This document shows positions 12,071 through 45,362 of a stretch of 64,000 nucleotides of DNA, in pieces. Origin of the DNA: Syncephalis fuscata. Taxonomy: Eukaryota; Zoopagomycota; Zoopagomycetes; Zoopagales; Piptocephalidaceae. The notes below the pieces were generated by a model that did not search any database, was not told the origin of the DNA, and was given only the letters and a program-made list of their open reading frames with translations. The position numbers were made by a program, and so were the translations under genes. Where the stretch lies: assembly GCA_025786725.1 (NCBI GenBank), contig JAHLTZ010000002.1, positions 868,001-932,000 on the forward strand, written 5' to 3'. The number at the start of each line of letters is the position of its first letter. Position 1 is the first letter of the stretch.

Positions 12071-12155
12071 CATGAATGAATCCAATAGACGTGACGCTCG
12101 TCGTTTAAGACGATATAAATGCTTTAGACGCCAGACTATTTTCACTACTCGGTTC
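12071..12155 (-). promoter_or_regulatory. Candidate eukaryotic SECIS element (type II-like) in the selenoprotein-H 3' UTR
   Basis: Read 5' to 3' on the minus strand. The 5' core GTGAA lies at 12145-12141 and the 3' core GGAT at 12083-12080, allowing the non-Watson-Crick quartet (T.T, G.A, A.G, A.G) that SBP2 recognises. Between them a helix of about 12 pairs forms, with one T.T mismatch and one bulged C (strand AATAGTCTGGCGT against GCGTCACGTCTATT). It is followed by unpaired AAA (CTAAAGC) on the 5' side and a small hairpin, TCGTC/GACGA. Below the quartet about five pairs with a mismatch form a weak helix I. The element starts about 45 nt after the stop codon. Found by eye, without energy calculation. 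Confidence 0.6.
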
Positions 12156-12189: not shown

Positions 12190-12899
12190 TTACTTTGACT
12201 GTTTACTAGCTGCATTGATAACATTGGCAACTAGACTGACAACATGCGCTTCATCAGGAAACTTTTCCTTCCTCGGTGGCCCCTAAACAGCAAATGGGAT
12301 ATGAATTACTAATTATTTAATTGTATTTATTAGACTAGTATTTACCTTTTTGATGCCACTCCAAATGAGTTGGCCATCAGATGAATCCGCTTCCGTAAGA
12401 ACGGTGATTTCAAAGCTTTTTGAACGAGGCTTTGTTGGATTCATTTCAATAATAGCATTGGGAAATTGCGCTACAATCGCCTGAATTTAGTATTATTTGA
12501 TTAATAAATATTAGCGTAGTAATAATAAGGGTCTAGATAGTATACGAACATTGCCCATATTGGTTGCATTTCGGCCGTATACTCGTCAGCTTTTACTAAT
12601 TGCATTATTAGTCTTTTTGTTAGTAAAATGCTAATTAACTTACCAGTGTTCAAACACCACGGTAAAGGGTGGCTATTTACACGTTCGCTGGAAGATGAGT
12701 CAGTAACAGGTGAAATTGCATTACTCGGCGTTGGTTGTGATTCTTCGAGTCTTGCTTTCTTCGTTGGTGCTGCGTCAGTTACAGTACTGGCGCGCTTGGC
12801 TTTTCTCGAAGGTTTTGTCTGTTCAGCAGGTGTGGCATAAGGGCGTTTGCCCAGCCGTGCACTGCGTCGTGTAGACTTGGAAGTCGATTCGGGGGGCAT
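12190..12899 (-). CDS. SELENOH: Selenoprotein H homologue with in-frame TGA (selenocysteine) in a CxxU motif
   Basis: Rdx-family, thioredoxin-fold redox protein, nuclear or nucleolar in animals. Minus-strand exons: 12644-12899, 12550-12595, 12346-12480 and 12190-12282; about 176 aa. Recognised from VVFEHC-K-S-(TGA)-R-VYGRNA, then MNPTKPRSKSFEITVL, LIWSGIKKGPPRK and KFPDE, in the order of animal SELENOH. The Cys codon spans an intron (TG|T) and the TGA at 12588-12586 sits exactly at the Sec of CxxU. The N-terminal 60 residues are Lys/Arg/Ser-rich (KSTRRSARLGKRPY, PTKKARLEE), fitting nuclear targeting. Near 12672 one base is missing from frame: AGC then CAC should be followed by CCC-TTT-ACC-GTG. 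A single lost C repairs it. The alternative is a 110-nt intron (12673-12782) or a 35-nt one (12673-12707). Sec rather than stop is supported by conservation after the TGA and by the SECIS-like fold. Confidence 0.85.
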
Positions 12900-33400: not shown

Positions 33401-36400
33401 TTATAATGACGTGTCGAGTTGCATCGAGGCCATATTTGTTTCTAAAGATTGAATACGTTGACGTTCATCGGTTAGATATCGGATTAAATAGGTATTTTCA
33501 TTGCAACTATATACAAATAAAATATTTAATCTATCGTTAGTATTATACTCATTAACATAATATATAAATAATAACTTACGTTTTAGCAAGTGTTTCATGC
33601 ATACGTGCTAAACCTTTTCTTAAAGCACGCATTGTTGGTTGTAATTGGCCGGCATGGTCGCGTAAATAAGTGGCATGTTCGCCAAGAAGTGCCACCGACC
33701 ATACAAGGTGAAAGTGAAGATGGCGCGACTTTTCAAGTTCTTCAGCAATAAACCGTAATAGTCGTTCAAGATATTTCGTAGGTAAAGCGTTGGCCACAAG
33801 TGGTACATCAACAGGTGGTATAGCTTCATAACTGCGCCGCATTAATTCAACGTCATTAAGTCGAATGGACATGGCTAGCGCACGCAACCAAGCACGTTCA
33901 TTCAATGAAACAAGTACAGCATCAGGTGTTAGATCCATATCAAGTTCAATCGGATCGAATTGGCTGGCATCATCAAGTGAAAAGATAACAAGGCCATCGG
34001 TAGCGGCGGCGGCCCAGCAACGGCCAGTTGGGGAGAATCGTACCCACTTTGTACGCATTTCTGGCTTTACTGAACGTACAGATAGGTCGCCTTTTTGAAC
34101 ACCGGGTAAAGCACGGTCACGCAATGTACTTTGACCACGACCACGTCGTTTACTCTCGCGTAGCTCTTCTTCCTCTTCGCTATCGGTCATCGGCGTAGCG
34201 TCAGGTCCGGCCTCGGTAATTCGTTTACTATTAAGCATTTCACGTACACCATCGTAGGAGAAGTTACGTGAAATTTCAAATCGACGTAATAATGCACGAC
34301 TATCAATGTCATAAAGACAAACAAATCGACAATTGCCACCACCTAATAGGCTACGACCATCGGCTGTATAGCAGATACTATTGAAGTAGCGATCGGAATC
34401 ACGATTATTCGTAGCACGTCGATCAACTTGGCGACGGCCCAAGCCAATATCGCGACGTACATCCATCACACCAAGTTGGCGGCCGTGTTCTGAATCCCAA
34501 AAGGTAAGTTCGCCATTAAGTGTTGCTGCCGCAATACGACGACCATCAGGACGATAAGCAATAGCGAGTACTTCGGCCTGGTGCTGGAACACTTCGACTG
34601 CTCTACCTCTACCGAATACATCCCATGTACGAACGCTATGATCCCATGATCCAGAGGCTAGTACGTTATCGACTGGTGAAAACGCCAGTGCACTTACAGG
34701 TCCTTCGTGACCAGCAAGTACATCGAGTAGTCGACCCGTTTGCATAGACCATACAAAGATTTCAAAGGAATCACGTGAACCGGCACAAACAATTTCACCG
34801 CTTGGATCACAAGCTAGACTGGCGAATTGTTTTGGTTCTGGTGTTAAAAAAGTACGGAAATTACGATAACGAGTCATATCATAGGCGCGTACCGTTCCGT
34901 CTAACGAGGCCGATAATACAACTTGACCTTGTTTAACAAACTCAACAGCCGTTACCGCTGCTGTGTGCTCTGAAAATGTAATAAAACAGAATCCAGATGC
35001 AGTATTCCACACTTTAACCTTGCCATCGGCACCGCCGGTCACTACATGTTGTCCATCGGGCGAGAAGGCCAGCGTATCCATGTCATAGTAGTGGCCTTGC
35101 TGTTTCAACACATATGATTCAGATTGCCATTCCCAAACAAGTAGCTGACCAAGTTTAGCCGATCCAAATGCTAGCCACTCGCCAGTATTATTGATGGCAC
35201 AAGTGTCAATACGATGCTGTGAAATACTAAATAATTCAATCCTTTTAATACAATTCGTTGTAATTATACTAGTTATTACCTTAGTGTATGAATGTTATTA
35301 AAATCTGGCATTTCCCAAATACCAAATACACCACTAGCAAATCCTACACATAACAATCCATTACGTGGTTGATATGTGGCACAGATAACACGAGCATAAT
35401 TCTGTTTAAACATGCGACGTTCAACAATCTTCCAGTTACGTGCGTCGGTAATACGAGATGCATCTGCATCGGCCATCTCTGTTTGTGGCTTATTATTGTC
35501 TTCTTCCTCTTCCTCTTCTTCCTCTTCAGTATCTGACTCTGATGTTTTGCGATTATTGTAACGTCTACGTTTTAATTTGCATCGCCATGCAAATAGACTA
35601 GCATCGCGACTAATCGTATAAATCTAATAGGCCATTAATATCACTTAAATAACCTGTTATGTTAAACAATACTTACTGTTTTTTGGTCTTTGGAGAAAAA
35701 AGCATTAACAATAGCTGCTTTATGGCCTGATAATGTAACTGCACCAAAGCCTTCAATCGGATCCAACGAGTAAAGCCGACAGGTCATATCTTTAGACCCA
35801 CTAACAAAGAATCTAATAAATCAAATATTAACAAAACTGCTACTAAATAGTATTAAATAGTATTAGATAGTATTTACCGTGAATCAGGTGACCATTGAAT
35901 TGAAGTAACATCATCCAAATGACCAGGGAAAGTACGATAATGAACAAATGGTGCAAATTCAGGATTCAATCCAGGTGAACGCCACACTTGAATTTGTTTA
36001 CCAATGGTCACTGCAAAGTATCTAATGTTAAATTAGTTAAGTGATTAATTGATCAGTATTATTGCTATTTTTACTATTATTTCTACTATTAAATACTTAC
36101 TTGCCATCCGGACTGAATTGTAAATTACGCACTGGACTTTTAAAGTTAAATTCACTTAGTAGAACACGTCGTTGAAAGTTAACAAGAATAGCTCGACCCG
36201 CTAATTGATATTATCCAGACATTGATAAATACATCTATAACTAGATAGATACCATCTATATCATATTTTAGTACTTACATTGGTCAATGGCTAGTAAAAG
36301 CGCATCGCTAGGTGAAAGTGCAATATGGGCAATATTCTGCTTGGTCTCACAAGGCAATGTATACGATTGATTGCTGTAATACATTATTACCATTAGTTAT

Positions 36401-41469: not shown

Positions 41470-41730
41470 GGCAGCAGTAAATGTTAAAATGTTCAGCAGG
41501 CGTGGGAGTAATATTAGAGCAGTGGCAAATAGAAAGGAAAGGAAAAGGAAAGGAAAATGGGGCAGTGTTCAAATGACGTATTCAAATAAGTCGGTGCACG
41601 TTATGCGTAGTGACGTGCCCACGTGTATTTATAGAAAGAATAGAGTACAAGTGAGGGCTGTATTGATTTAAATAGCTACAATGCAGGTACCAATAAATGA
41701 TTATTCCAATTCTGTTCTATTGTTATTCCA
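41470..41730. promoter_or_regulatory. Bidirectional promoter between FAH and aldehyde dehydrogenase
   Basis: Only about 260 bp separate the two divergent start codons. A GGAAAGGAAAAGG purine tract lies at about 41536-41560 and TATTTATAG at about 41626-41634. Co-regulation of the two catabolic genes is an inference. Confidence 0.45.
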
Positions 41731-43239
41731 ATGTCTATTACTGCCTCTTTAAAACAGCAGTTGCGTGGCTGTATTGCGCCGTTTATTGGTGGACAGTTTT
41801 TAACCAGTGCCGCTCGACCCACCCGTTCCGTAACTAGCCCTATAGATGGCGCTGAGTTGGCCAGTATAGCCCATGCCACCATAGCCGATGTTGATCAAGC
41901 CGTGGACCAAGCACGCAAGGCCATCCATCGAGATGCACCATGGGCCAATTTTACAGGCGCTCATCGTCGTGACGTGCTTCTATCGTTGTCTGATGTAGTA
42001 CGCGATCATCGCGATGAATTTGCCGCGCTAGAATCAGCTAACAGTGGAAAACCACTTGACGATGCGTATCTCGAAATGGATGATGTTATCGAGTGCTTCA
42101 GATGGTATGCTGGGTGTGCCGATCGTCTTCATGGAGTCATGGCTTTGCCAGGAGGCACGAATCCAACGATGCGCCAGTATACGCTACGGCAGCCAGCCGG
42201 CGTCTGTTCCATGGTCGTTAGTTTTAACTATCCATTGATGTTGGCTGCGTGGAAGCTGGCACCAGCACTGGCGTGTGGCAATGCCGTTATATTGAAACCA
42301 GCCATTCAAACGCCATTAAGCAGTTTAAGATTTGCTGAATTAACGGCAAAATTATTACCGCCTGGTGTACTTAATGTATTACCAGGTGGTGCGGATATTG
42401 GCCAAGCATTATCAAATCATGTAAATATTGATCGTTGTAGCTTTACCGGATCTACGGCAGTGGGCCGTGAGATATTGCGTGCATCAGCCGGTAGTAATTT
42501 GAAGCGGTGTACACTTGAATTGGGCGGCAAAGCAGCAATGATTGTTATGCCCGATGCCGATATGAAACGAGCTATTCGTGATGTTTTTGACATGGCATTC
42601 ACCAATACTGGACAAAACTGCTGTGCGGGTACACGTCTTTTAGTACATGCAGATATTTACGATAGCTTTATTGCTCAATTAAAGGCCCATACTGAGGCAG
42701 CACAGCTTGGCGTAGCAAAAGGATGCGTGATGGGTCCGCTAATTGATAGAATACAACGAGATCGTGTTGTTGCTTACATTGAACGTGCCATTGCTGATCA
42801 TGGACAGCAAGGGGAATTGCTATGCGGTGGACCCAATCTATCGAATGTGCAAGCAGCTTCATTGCCAAAGGAATATCTTGGTATACCGCCAACTATTTTC
42901 CATAAAGTACCCGAGGATGCTCCGCTAGCCTGTGAAGAGATCTTTGGGCCAGTGCTGTCTGTGCTAGCACCATTCCATAGCCTTGATGAGGCGATTGATC
43001 GAGCCAATAGAACACCATACGGATTGTCGGCGGCCATTTGGACACGATCACTATCTAGTGCGGATCGAGCAGTTCGCTTATTGAAAGCGGGAACCGTTTG
43101 GGTAAATCATTGCAATACACTGTATCCTTACTTGCCATTTGGCGGCATCGGACAGAGTGGCTTTGGAAAAGATCTTGGCCAAGAGGCACTCGATGAATTC
43201 AGTGATATTAAAACAGCGTCGATGCTGATGGATGAATAA
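41731..43239 (+). CDS. NAD(P)+-dependent aldehyde dehydrogenase (ALDH9/betaine-aldehyde-like)
   Basis: 502 aa, intronless, unusual here. Oxidises an aldehyde to the acid. The ALDH fold is complete: SFNYPLMLAAWKLAPALACGNAVILKPA (cofactor region; the usual PWN is SFN, the catalytic Asn kept), FTGSTAVGREI, LELGGKAAMIV (general base Glu), NTGQNCCAGTR with nucleophile Cys297, EEIFGPVLSVL and LPFGGIGQSGFGKDLG. Overall resemblance is to ALDH9A1 and betaine/4-trimethylaminobutyraldehyde dehydrogenases, but substrate is not readable from sequence. No targeting peptide is obvious (MSITASLKQQLRG). Lack of introns could mean retrocopying or simple loss; codon use looks like its neighbours. Confidence 0.93.
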   Translation: MSITASLKQQLRGCIAPFIGGQFLTSAARPTRSVTSPIDGAELASIAHATIADVDQAVDQARKAIHRDAPWANFTGAHRRDVLLSLSDVVRDHRDEFAALESANSGKPLDDAYLEMDDVIECFRWYAGCADRLHGVMALPGGTNPTMRQYTLRQPAGVCSMVVSFNYPLMLAAWKLAPALACGNAVILKPAIQTPLSSLRFAELTAKLLPPGVLNVLPGGADIGQALSNHVNIDRCSFTGSTAVGREILRASAGSNLKRCTLELGGKAAMIVMPDADMKRAIRDVFDMAFTNTGQNCCAGTRLLVHADIYDSFIAQLKAHTEAAQLGVAKGCVMGPLIDRIQRDRVVAYIERAIADHGQQGELLCGGPNLSNVQAASLPKEYLGIPPTIFHKVPEDAPLACEEIFGPVLSVLAPFHSLDEAIDRANRTPYGLSAAIWTRSLSSADRAVRLLKAGTVWVNHCNTLYPYLPFGGIGQSGFGKDLGQEALDEFSDIKTASMLMDE

Positions 43240-43452
43240 ATAATTGGGCTTTTGCAACAATCTAGATTAACATATACATTTATCGTTTTATTGGCTGATA
43301 TTGTGGCTTACAAAGTAATAAATATTAACATAGATGTAATCAATTATAATGTTATTAATCCAATTTTACTATCTATGACATTTTTACTATTTATATATTT
43401 ATATATGCTACTAATTTAAATAATAAAAAGCCAAGTTTAATTAAATATTTTA

Positions 43453-45362
43453 TTAATCAAGTAGCGAGTTTCGGTAAACTCTGGCCATTTTGGTGATGTG
43501 CCTCGTTAATCGACGATACGGGGGATTTTCTTCAACGATGGTTTCGCATCCAATTGTAGTCATGCCGCCAAATGGCATATGATTCTTAACCGTTTTATCA
43601 AGTTTAGGCCAGCGAATGCCAAGTGCCGCTAGAAATACAAGTGCGCGAATGAGGTAGGCTGTGTCGTACATGCCATCGATCGTGGCAAACTGTTGAAGGG
43701 ATGATAGTGTTTCGTTCTTTAAAATTATTATAAACCATATTCCAAATATTAAATAAGTGATACAGCCAAATGCAGAAAAACATGCTAGCTAATGATATAT
43801 AATGTTTAGTGCCTAAATTATATATTTCAGCTGTTGTTTACCTGAATAAAACGAAAATAGCCTTCGGGATGTTTCTTTAGTTTGTGTGCACTACGTCCAA
43901 ACCATATTGCTATTGCACCATATATTGTTATGCGTTTATTCGTTGACACGGTTCAATTACTTACTGAATCCGCCGAAAATAAGAACATCCATAAAGTACG
44001 CCAGATGTATCATATACAATAGCACATATACAAAGTCAACCTTGCTTGCACTCCATAGGTAGCTAGTGTCGTAGGAGGTTAGTCTGCATATGAATAGAGC
44101 AATTTGCATTGCCAAGTCCAAAATAATCATTATTCGAAGAAACAGAATAGATTTTTTTGAAAACATATTTCTTCCAACAATTGACCTAAATAATTATTAG
44201 TACTGCTATTTCTGTTTTTTTTTGCTTATATGTTTAAAGTTGGTTCATTACATACCAGTGCCAAAGTATCAATTCAAAGGGCAGCTTTGATAAAGTGCTA
44301 TAGATTGCACTTTGATTGGAAAAGACTTCAGTCATACTAATTAAATGCATCGAAAATACTAAATTTGAAATTCAATTAATACGTATTAATAAGCGTGTTA
44401 CATTTACATACATATGCAATATACGATAGTAATAATAAATGATAATAAAAGAAGATCTGAATACAGTTTCTTCAGCTTGATCAGCATCAAAGTACGTGCA
44501 CATGCATAGCTAAAAGCTATAAGCAACTGCGAAAATAGAATTAGCAATAGTTATACGATAGCAGAGCTACATACCAGTGAAAAGTATAACCATTTGTAGG
44601 CAATGAAGCCAGAAGATAAAAATAAATCATTCCATTCGCCGGGTTCTATTCAAATGGTCTAATGCTTAGTAAAACTATAATTTGTATTCAAATCCTCAGA
44701 TACCTTGTTCGGCAACATAGTAAATGGCGCTTTGATTGTTGAGCAGTAGATTTTTAATAATCTCACTATTATCAGAATTGATGGTAGTGACAGTCATGGA
44801 TGGAGGTCTAACAGGATCTACAAATACTTGATCCTTAATGTATGAAACCATTTCGGCATCCCATAAACCATGTAAATCGATATAGTCGAGCAAAATCAAA
44901 AGTCGGATAGGCGGGAATCCAGCGTGCGACAATTGCTGCGTCATATTGTTGATGGCTCTAACAGCCTACAAGAAACGTCAATACAGTGCTGCTACTAACA
45001 AACAGACCTACCTGCTCTTTAGTCTCACAATTGGCTTTTTTCATACTATAGTAGTTGAGAATTAAAGCCGAGTCTGGATAAGCAGAAGCTATTTTTGCTT
45101 GTTTCTGGATATTTGGACTGAATGTACGAAAAGGTTTAACGATACAGGCACCGTAAGATGCCTCATTTTCAAACCTTCCAGCAACAGCAATGCCATCATA
45201 TCTATAATATGGCACTCTATCGAGAAAATAGTCTGAGGTAGGATAGGATGTTTCCGTATTGTTATCTCCTATTACGGTAATTTTTGCATTGGCAATATTA
45301 AGCTGAACAAACAAATAAATACATACAATTAATACTAAGCGATTAAAATTGAATTGATACAT
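43453..45362 (-). CDS. Seven-transmembrane protein with secreted PA-like N-terminal domain (paralogue B)
   Basis: Minus-strand exons: 45012-45362, 44704-44965, 44575-44645, 44412-44526, 44256-44358, 43965-44185, 43842-43909 and 43453-43716; 484 aa. It has a signal peptide (LVLIVCIYLFVQLNIANA), an ectodomain with matching landmarks (SDYFLDRVPYYRYDGIAVA, NCETKEQ, AGFPPIRLLILLDYIDLHG), EPGEWNDLFLS before TM1, and the same series of hydrophobic segments ending TAYLIRALVFLAALGIRWP. Intron phases 0,1,0,1,2,1,0 equal those of 20328-22345, and exons 3, 4 and 7 have the same length (71, 115, 68). The cytoplasmic tail is much shorter (about 40 residues). Function unknown; same hypotheses as paralogue A. 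Confidence 0.8.

Follow-up and report, generated by a model that had tools for sequence, protein, structure and literature searches.

Does an in-frame TGA in a small gene of Syncephalis fuscata, a mycoparasitic fungus of the order Zoopagales (Zoopagomycotina), specify selenocysteine (Sec), and does the genome that carries this gene possess the means to decode it? The question was raised by a first-pass annotation of a 64,000-nt stretch of genomic DNA (hereafter the window), which proposed a selenoprotein H (SELENOH) gene truncated or overlooked by ORF-based annotation and suggested from it that the genome decodes Sec. Published accounts conflict on Sec use in fungi: PMC7988114 and PMC8559351 conclude, from annotated proteomes, that fungi do not use Sec, whereas the study of Mariotti et al. 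2019, as summarized in PMC12611240, PMC10386755 and PMC11378755, recorded nine Sec-using fungal species, seven of them Harpellales, and PMC11378755 names the phyla Chytridiomycota, Zoopagomycota and Mucoromycota. The analysis described below leads us to regard this locus, with high confidence, as a genuine S. fuscata SELENOH gene, whose UGA at 12588-12586 would be decoded as Sec by resident machinery.

Gene structure and family assignment

The predicted gene lies on the minus strand, occurs once in the genome and is summarized in Table 1.

Table 1. The SELENOH locus of S. fuscata (window coordinates; splicing as predicted)
Feature	Position	Strand	Remarks
SELENOH gene, four exons	12899-12190	minus	ATG 12899-12897, stop TAA
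Exon 1, coding part	12644..12899	minus	basic N-terminus from ATG 12899, then PPFTVVFEHC(TG)
Intron 1, 48 nt	12643-12596	minus	GTAAGT..TTAG, includes TACTAAC; divides Cys codon TG|T
Exon 2	12595-12550	minus	(C)KSURVYGRNATNMGN
In-frame TGA, U of CxxU	12588-12586	minus	in exon 2
Intron 2, 69 nt	12549-12481	minus	donor GTTCGT, unusual
Exon 3	12480-12346	minus	AIVAQFPNAIIEMNPTKPRSKSFEITVLTEADSSDGQLIWSGIKK
Intron 3, 63 nt	12345-12283	minus	
Exon 4	12282-12190	minus	GPPRKEKFPDEAHVVSLVANVINAASKQSK, then stop TAA
Candidate SECIS	12078..12148	minus	GUGA .. UAAA .. GGAU; weak

The first-pass annotation had TGA at the U of a CxxU motif whose Cys codon becomes TGT only upon splicing, and both points hold: exon 1 ends in CAC TG at 12644 and exon 2 continues (TG)T AAA AGC TGA CGA GTA TAC GGC CGA AAT GCA, i.e. 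C K S U R V Y G R N A. It had further distributed the family blocks over three further exons; their order stands, but the gene has four exons in total and the TGA is in the second. Exons 2-4 are open except for this single TGA, with the conserved blocks intact, and skipping of exon 2 would still lose the frame, as (TG)GCGATTGTAG then reads TGG CGA TTG TAG. The donor of intron 2 was picked for preserving both the frame and the family length.

In profile searches with a 100-aa core of the protein, in which U was written as C, we recovered the Pfam Rdx domain (E 4.2e-10, 40.1 bits; cut-off 22.6) and the NCBIfam CXXU_selWTH family (E 1.7e-15, 57.1 bits; cut-off 34.2), and a search of public proteins scored 21 candidates, of which 20 were kept. 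All these matches are far above chance. Six of the 20 proteins (P0005, P0006, P0008-P0011) bear the source name Selenoprotein H and four have a precomputed Rdx domain, while neither SelW nor SelT appears among the nine with a source name; judged by these matches, the closest relatives of the core would be SelenoH rather than SelW/SelT. Identity to six aligned relatives is 39-53%. Three matches that lack a source name (P0001-P0003) display W in the Sec column of the alignment, within CKS-W-(R/Q)VY, which presumably results from translation of TGA as Trp by an annotation pipeline. The protein resembles animal SELENOH in sharing the VV(I/F)EHC-x-S-U-RVYGRNA, NPxKPR, SFE and WSGIKKGPPRK blocks in the same order, here with CKS-TGA-RVYGRN at the redox motif and WSGIKKGPPRKEKFP corresponding to the C-terminal GIKKGPPRK; it may also share a basic N-terminus, should the K/R-rich ATG frame prove continuous with the core frame, and it differs in its weak SECIS candidate. 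No relative was found in PDB (best E 0.74).

As suspected at the outset, annotation seems to have passed over the gene: Syncephalis is absent from the nine matches with a source name. Moreover, a PF10262 profile search of the whole genome gave 0 matches and missed even this SELENOH gene, implying that small multi-exon selenoproteins can escape such searches; the locus is a concrete case of annotation hiding selenoprotein genes.

Selenocysteine machinery and further TGA-containing genes

Six components of the Sec machinery were sought, and by sequence comparison all six are present: tRNA-Sec, eEFSec, SepSecS, PSTK, SPS and an SBP2-like protein. tRNA-Sec(TCA) was detected at two loci (76.9 bits, cut-off 47) and labelled SeC(tca) by ARAGORN, whereas a third match of the search proved to be a tRNA-Ser. 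The regions around the two loci, on contigs C132 and C68, are 99.6% identical over 5.9 kb; they are either alleles, with the 15-kb C132 possibly the allelic copy, or a recent duplication. The eEFSec gene on C238 matched eEFSec in PDB with E 2e-100, against 3.7e-41 for archaeal SelB and 4.8e-31 for the best EF-Tu, and contains the Pfam euk_SelB_III domain (8.1e-9). The two best TIGR00475 matches, on C245 and C101, had at first been taken as eEFSec; on reading them we take these, by eye, to be mitochondrial EF-Tu and eEF1A, respectively. SepSecS (E 8.2e-73) is encoded on C223 and SPS (E 6e-104) on C225. The SepSecS region (C223:878500-891000) holds a further, partial copy of the gene, inverted relative to the first and 99.7% identical to it over 1532 bases. 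PSTK, also on C223, is the weakest identification of the set: its best PDB match is archaeal PSTK (E 6e-11), it displays a KTI12-type kinase domain and its TIGR03575 matches fall below the cut-off. In the family searches, where genes are split by exons, eEFSec, SPS and PSTK all stayed below the NCBIfam cut-offs (TIGR00475, TIGR00476 and TIGR03575, respectively).

The SBP2-like gene on C79 encodes an L7Ae domain that, together with the stretch just before it, resembles human SECISBP2 (SBP2; PDB 7zjw, query 1-139 against chain 638-767, E 1.2e-17; next eL30, 8.7e-5), which sets it nearer to SBP2 and farther from the L7Ae proteins of the ribosome. Unlike in human SECISBP2, the domain continues within one exon, with no stop between, into ankyrin repeats (Ank_2, E 5.4e-30). 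A PF01248 profile search of the genome returned 11 matches; the seven loci read were discarded as SBP2 candidates, as by eye we take them to be ordinary L7Ae-type ribosomal or snoRNP proteins, and the C79 gene is the SBP2-like one. The public annotation of this gene (C79:299000-308900) is an ankyrin repeat-containing domain protein. A public S. fuscata protein (P0141) combines both L7Ae and ankyrin regions and is 98% identical over 93% of the searched region. A search with the L7Ae region scored 588 candidates, and one, the S. fuscata protein itself, reached E 0.001; as this search depends on common five-residue words, its outcome does not imply absence in other organisms. We found no report of a fungal SECIS-binding protein with ankyrin repeats in the literature searched.

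SPS itself contains TGA, in the context LKG-TGA-GCK, where SEPHS1 has T and SEPHS2 has U. Likewise, a GPX4-like gene (C223:519441-519893; GPX4, E 1.3e-61) has TGA within NVASK-TGA-GFTK and also ends in TGA. Thus, in three families (SELENOH, SPS and GPx) TGA occurs inside a conserved core, each time at the Sec position. With tRNA-Sec and eEFSec both in place (the first-pass annotation had named their absence as evidence against it), the other machinery genes and the TGAs of SPS and GPx, the idea that this genome decodes Sec gains clear support. In a PF00578 search none of the 7 matches had an internal TGA. The genome search for GPx gave 5 matches at two loci, on C223 and C231. The C231 locus (41500-45000) is a broken copy with TGC at the Sec codon, which lacks three of the four introns of the C223 gene (517500-521500) and in whose 3' flank the candidate SECIS element of GPx, described below, has lost its 5' arm to a 57-nt gap; it looks like a retrocopy.

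Candidate SECIS elements and a proposed recoding scheme

We searched 540-nt 3' flanks with a SECIS descriptor comprising a 5' UGA, a 3' GA, a closed helix and unpaired AA inside. The flanks of SELENOH and SPS each yielded one candidate, whose UGA begins 46 and 56 nt past the stop, respectively. When the window was cut into 236 pieces of 540 nt as background, 8 of them, SELENOH's own included, gave a candidate at 50-75 nt and an inner energy <= -12. The two are alike in their upper helix, G(A/G)CGU/GCGUC, in C(U)AAA and in a small hairpin stacked above. The SPS candidate is near-canonical, sharing with eukaryotic SECIS (Rfam SECIS_1) an AUGA/UGAU core, the helix, unpaired AAA and the small apical hairpin (z -2.9; 3 of 500 shuffles equally stable). 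The SELENOH candidate, with a GUGA/GGAU core, is weak and no more stable than shuffled sequence (z -0.23; 197/500), and its role as the SECIS element of this gene is putative. That of GPx is longer and non-canonical (-27.2), and was obtained at looser settings chosen with the gene already known, at which 29 of the 236 background pieces reach <= -12, 6 reach -20 and 1 reaches -25. The Rfam SECIS_1 model departs from these elements in that it has no match in the SELENOH or SPS 3' ends, nor in the whole genome. When a covariance model was built from just the SPS element, it gave no meaningful match to the SELENOH element, and the two did not align in MAFFT. Consensus SECIS elements are reportedly absent from most fungal selenoproteins (Mariotti 2019), a statement that the weak and non-canonical candidates of S. 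fuscata would fit.

Based on these observations, we propose that seryl-tRNA-Sec(UCA) would be phosphorylated by PSTK and then converted by SepSecS, using selenophosphate from the itself TGA-bearing SPS, and that eEFSec would deliver the resulting Sec-tRNA to the UGA at 12588-12586, with a 3' UTR element bound by the SBP2-like protein directing the predicted Sec insertion. The SELENOH product would be a small, basic CxxU protein of the Rdx (SelW/T/H) family with a presumptive redox role. More tentatively, and with somewhat less than an even chance of being right, Zoopagales may have retained Sec with an altered recoding apparatus, in which an L7Ae-ankyrin SBP2 acts on divergent 3' UTR elements that range from near-canonical (SPS) to non-canonical (SELENOH and GPx). 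If true, this genome could reveal in what ways fungi insert Sec differently from animals; the three 3' UTRs and the unusual SBP2 provide material for asking how fungi mark UGA for Sec.

The frame break in exon 1

The first-pass annotation had noted a frame defect near 12672. Such a defect is indeed present, though it probably reflects an indel in the assembly and not a biological change. The frame encoding VVFEHC meets TAG at 12675-12673 and has no ATG below it, and the K/R-rich frame starting at ATG 12899 continues past this TAG, such that, as assembled, exon 1 is not open and the ATG frame has no junction to the core frame. The break leaves the Sec exon untouched. Enumeration of introns that might span it produced 2 GT-AG and 9 GC-AG readings, every one ending in AAATAG (12673); an intron is disfavoured relative to an indel because these candidates have 43-50% GC, well above the 22-25% of introns 1-3.

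Four pairs of nearly identical assembly segments were compared, and in their longest matches homopolymers account for 13/16, 5/7, 2/6 and 0/1 of the indels. The first two pairs each include a small conserved gene whose second copy is no longer one open frame; its aligned identity falls to 59% and 51%, versus 100%, at a DNA identity of 99.1% and 99.5%. Since homopolymer indels are this frequent, an assembly indel is the likeliest cause of the exon 1 break, which lies upstream of 12672 and is probably not biological. The near-identical pairs L035/L039 and L036/L040 carry small conserved genes of the L7Ae family and differ mostly by homopolymer indels, which break the second copy; this points to residual assembly indel errors or to pseudogenes.

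Alternative readings of the locus

Could the gene instead be a decaying pseudogene, in which the TGA and the exon 1 break are both inactivating? The TAG lying between the frame of the ATG and that of the core, and the weak SECIS candidate, are what one might cite for decay, and yet beyond exon 1 the only interruption is one TGA lying exactly at U, amid intact conserved blocks; SPS and GPx show the same pattern in a genome with the Sec machinery, and homopolymer indels break the second copies of two other small conserved genes in this very assembly. We consider decay improbable. Still harder to sustain is the notion that TGA is a sense codon for Trp or Cys in this nucleus, with no Sec at all. 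The window's ten long ORFs, which end in TAA (7) or TAG (3) and never in TGA, would agree with it; however, in a peptide look-up of gene ends a stop followed 10 of 11 peptides and was TGA in two, GPx and mitochondrial EF-Tu. Because TGA terminates these genes, it is not a reassigned codon in S. fuscata. Furthermore, a PWP2-like ORF of the window uses TGG for Trp 9 times and TGA 0 times, tRNA-Sec(TCA) and its enzymes exist, and the three TGAs occupy Sec rather than Trp positions, leaving reassignment with hardly any probability.

Syncephalis grows on a mould host, and the machinery or the SELENOH gene might come from another organism in the culture rather than from one and the same genome. The PWP2-like ORF (33576-35081) is 79% identical to its counterpart in Thamnocephalis sphaerospora and at most 58% identical to the other organism-named matches among the best 120 of 6915. 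A tree was built from the window protein together with 21 of these 120; there the window protein clusters with Thamnocephalis and a single metagenome protein (SH-aLRT 100), the composition of the window and Thamnocephalis rows departing from the rest. This ties C112, the contig with SELENOH, to Zoopagales, as the S. fuscata protein P0141 ties C79, with the SBP2-like gene. The tie covers these two of the six contigs concerned (C112, C223, C225, C238, C68 and C79), which leaves some room for foreign origin, but all six are 173-996 kb long and the two tied ones carry SELENOH and the SBP2-like gene themselves; contamination is very unlikely to explain the data.

Relation to known fungal selenoproteins

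The Sec form of SelenoH is of a kind already known in fungi. The first-pass annotation had pointed to reported Sec use in some early-branching phyla; such a protein is published for Harpellales (PMC12611240), and the lineage can now be refined to Zoopagales. S. fuscata shares with Zancudomyces culisetae and other Harpellales both a UGA-encoded Sec SelenoH and the Sec machinery gene set; it differs in belonging to another subphylum, and in S. fuscata a TGA-bearing GPx occurs as well. The Zoopagales instance is apparently new, with no earlier report of Sec use in Zoopagales or Syncephalis in the literature searched, outside which most subscription papers fall, and would extend Sec use to this order. 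The six machinery components sought and three genes with TGA at Sec positions, all in an assembly of long contigs that represents a different subphylum of zoopagomycetes, offer independent support for the Sec trait in fungi.

Elsewhere in the window, an intronless 502-aa ORF (41731-43239), which by eye we take to be aldehyde-dehydrogenase-like, lies among intron-bearing genes and is a candidate for bacterial origin.
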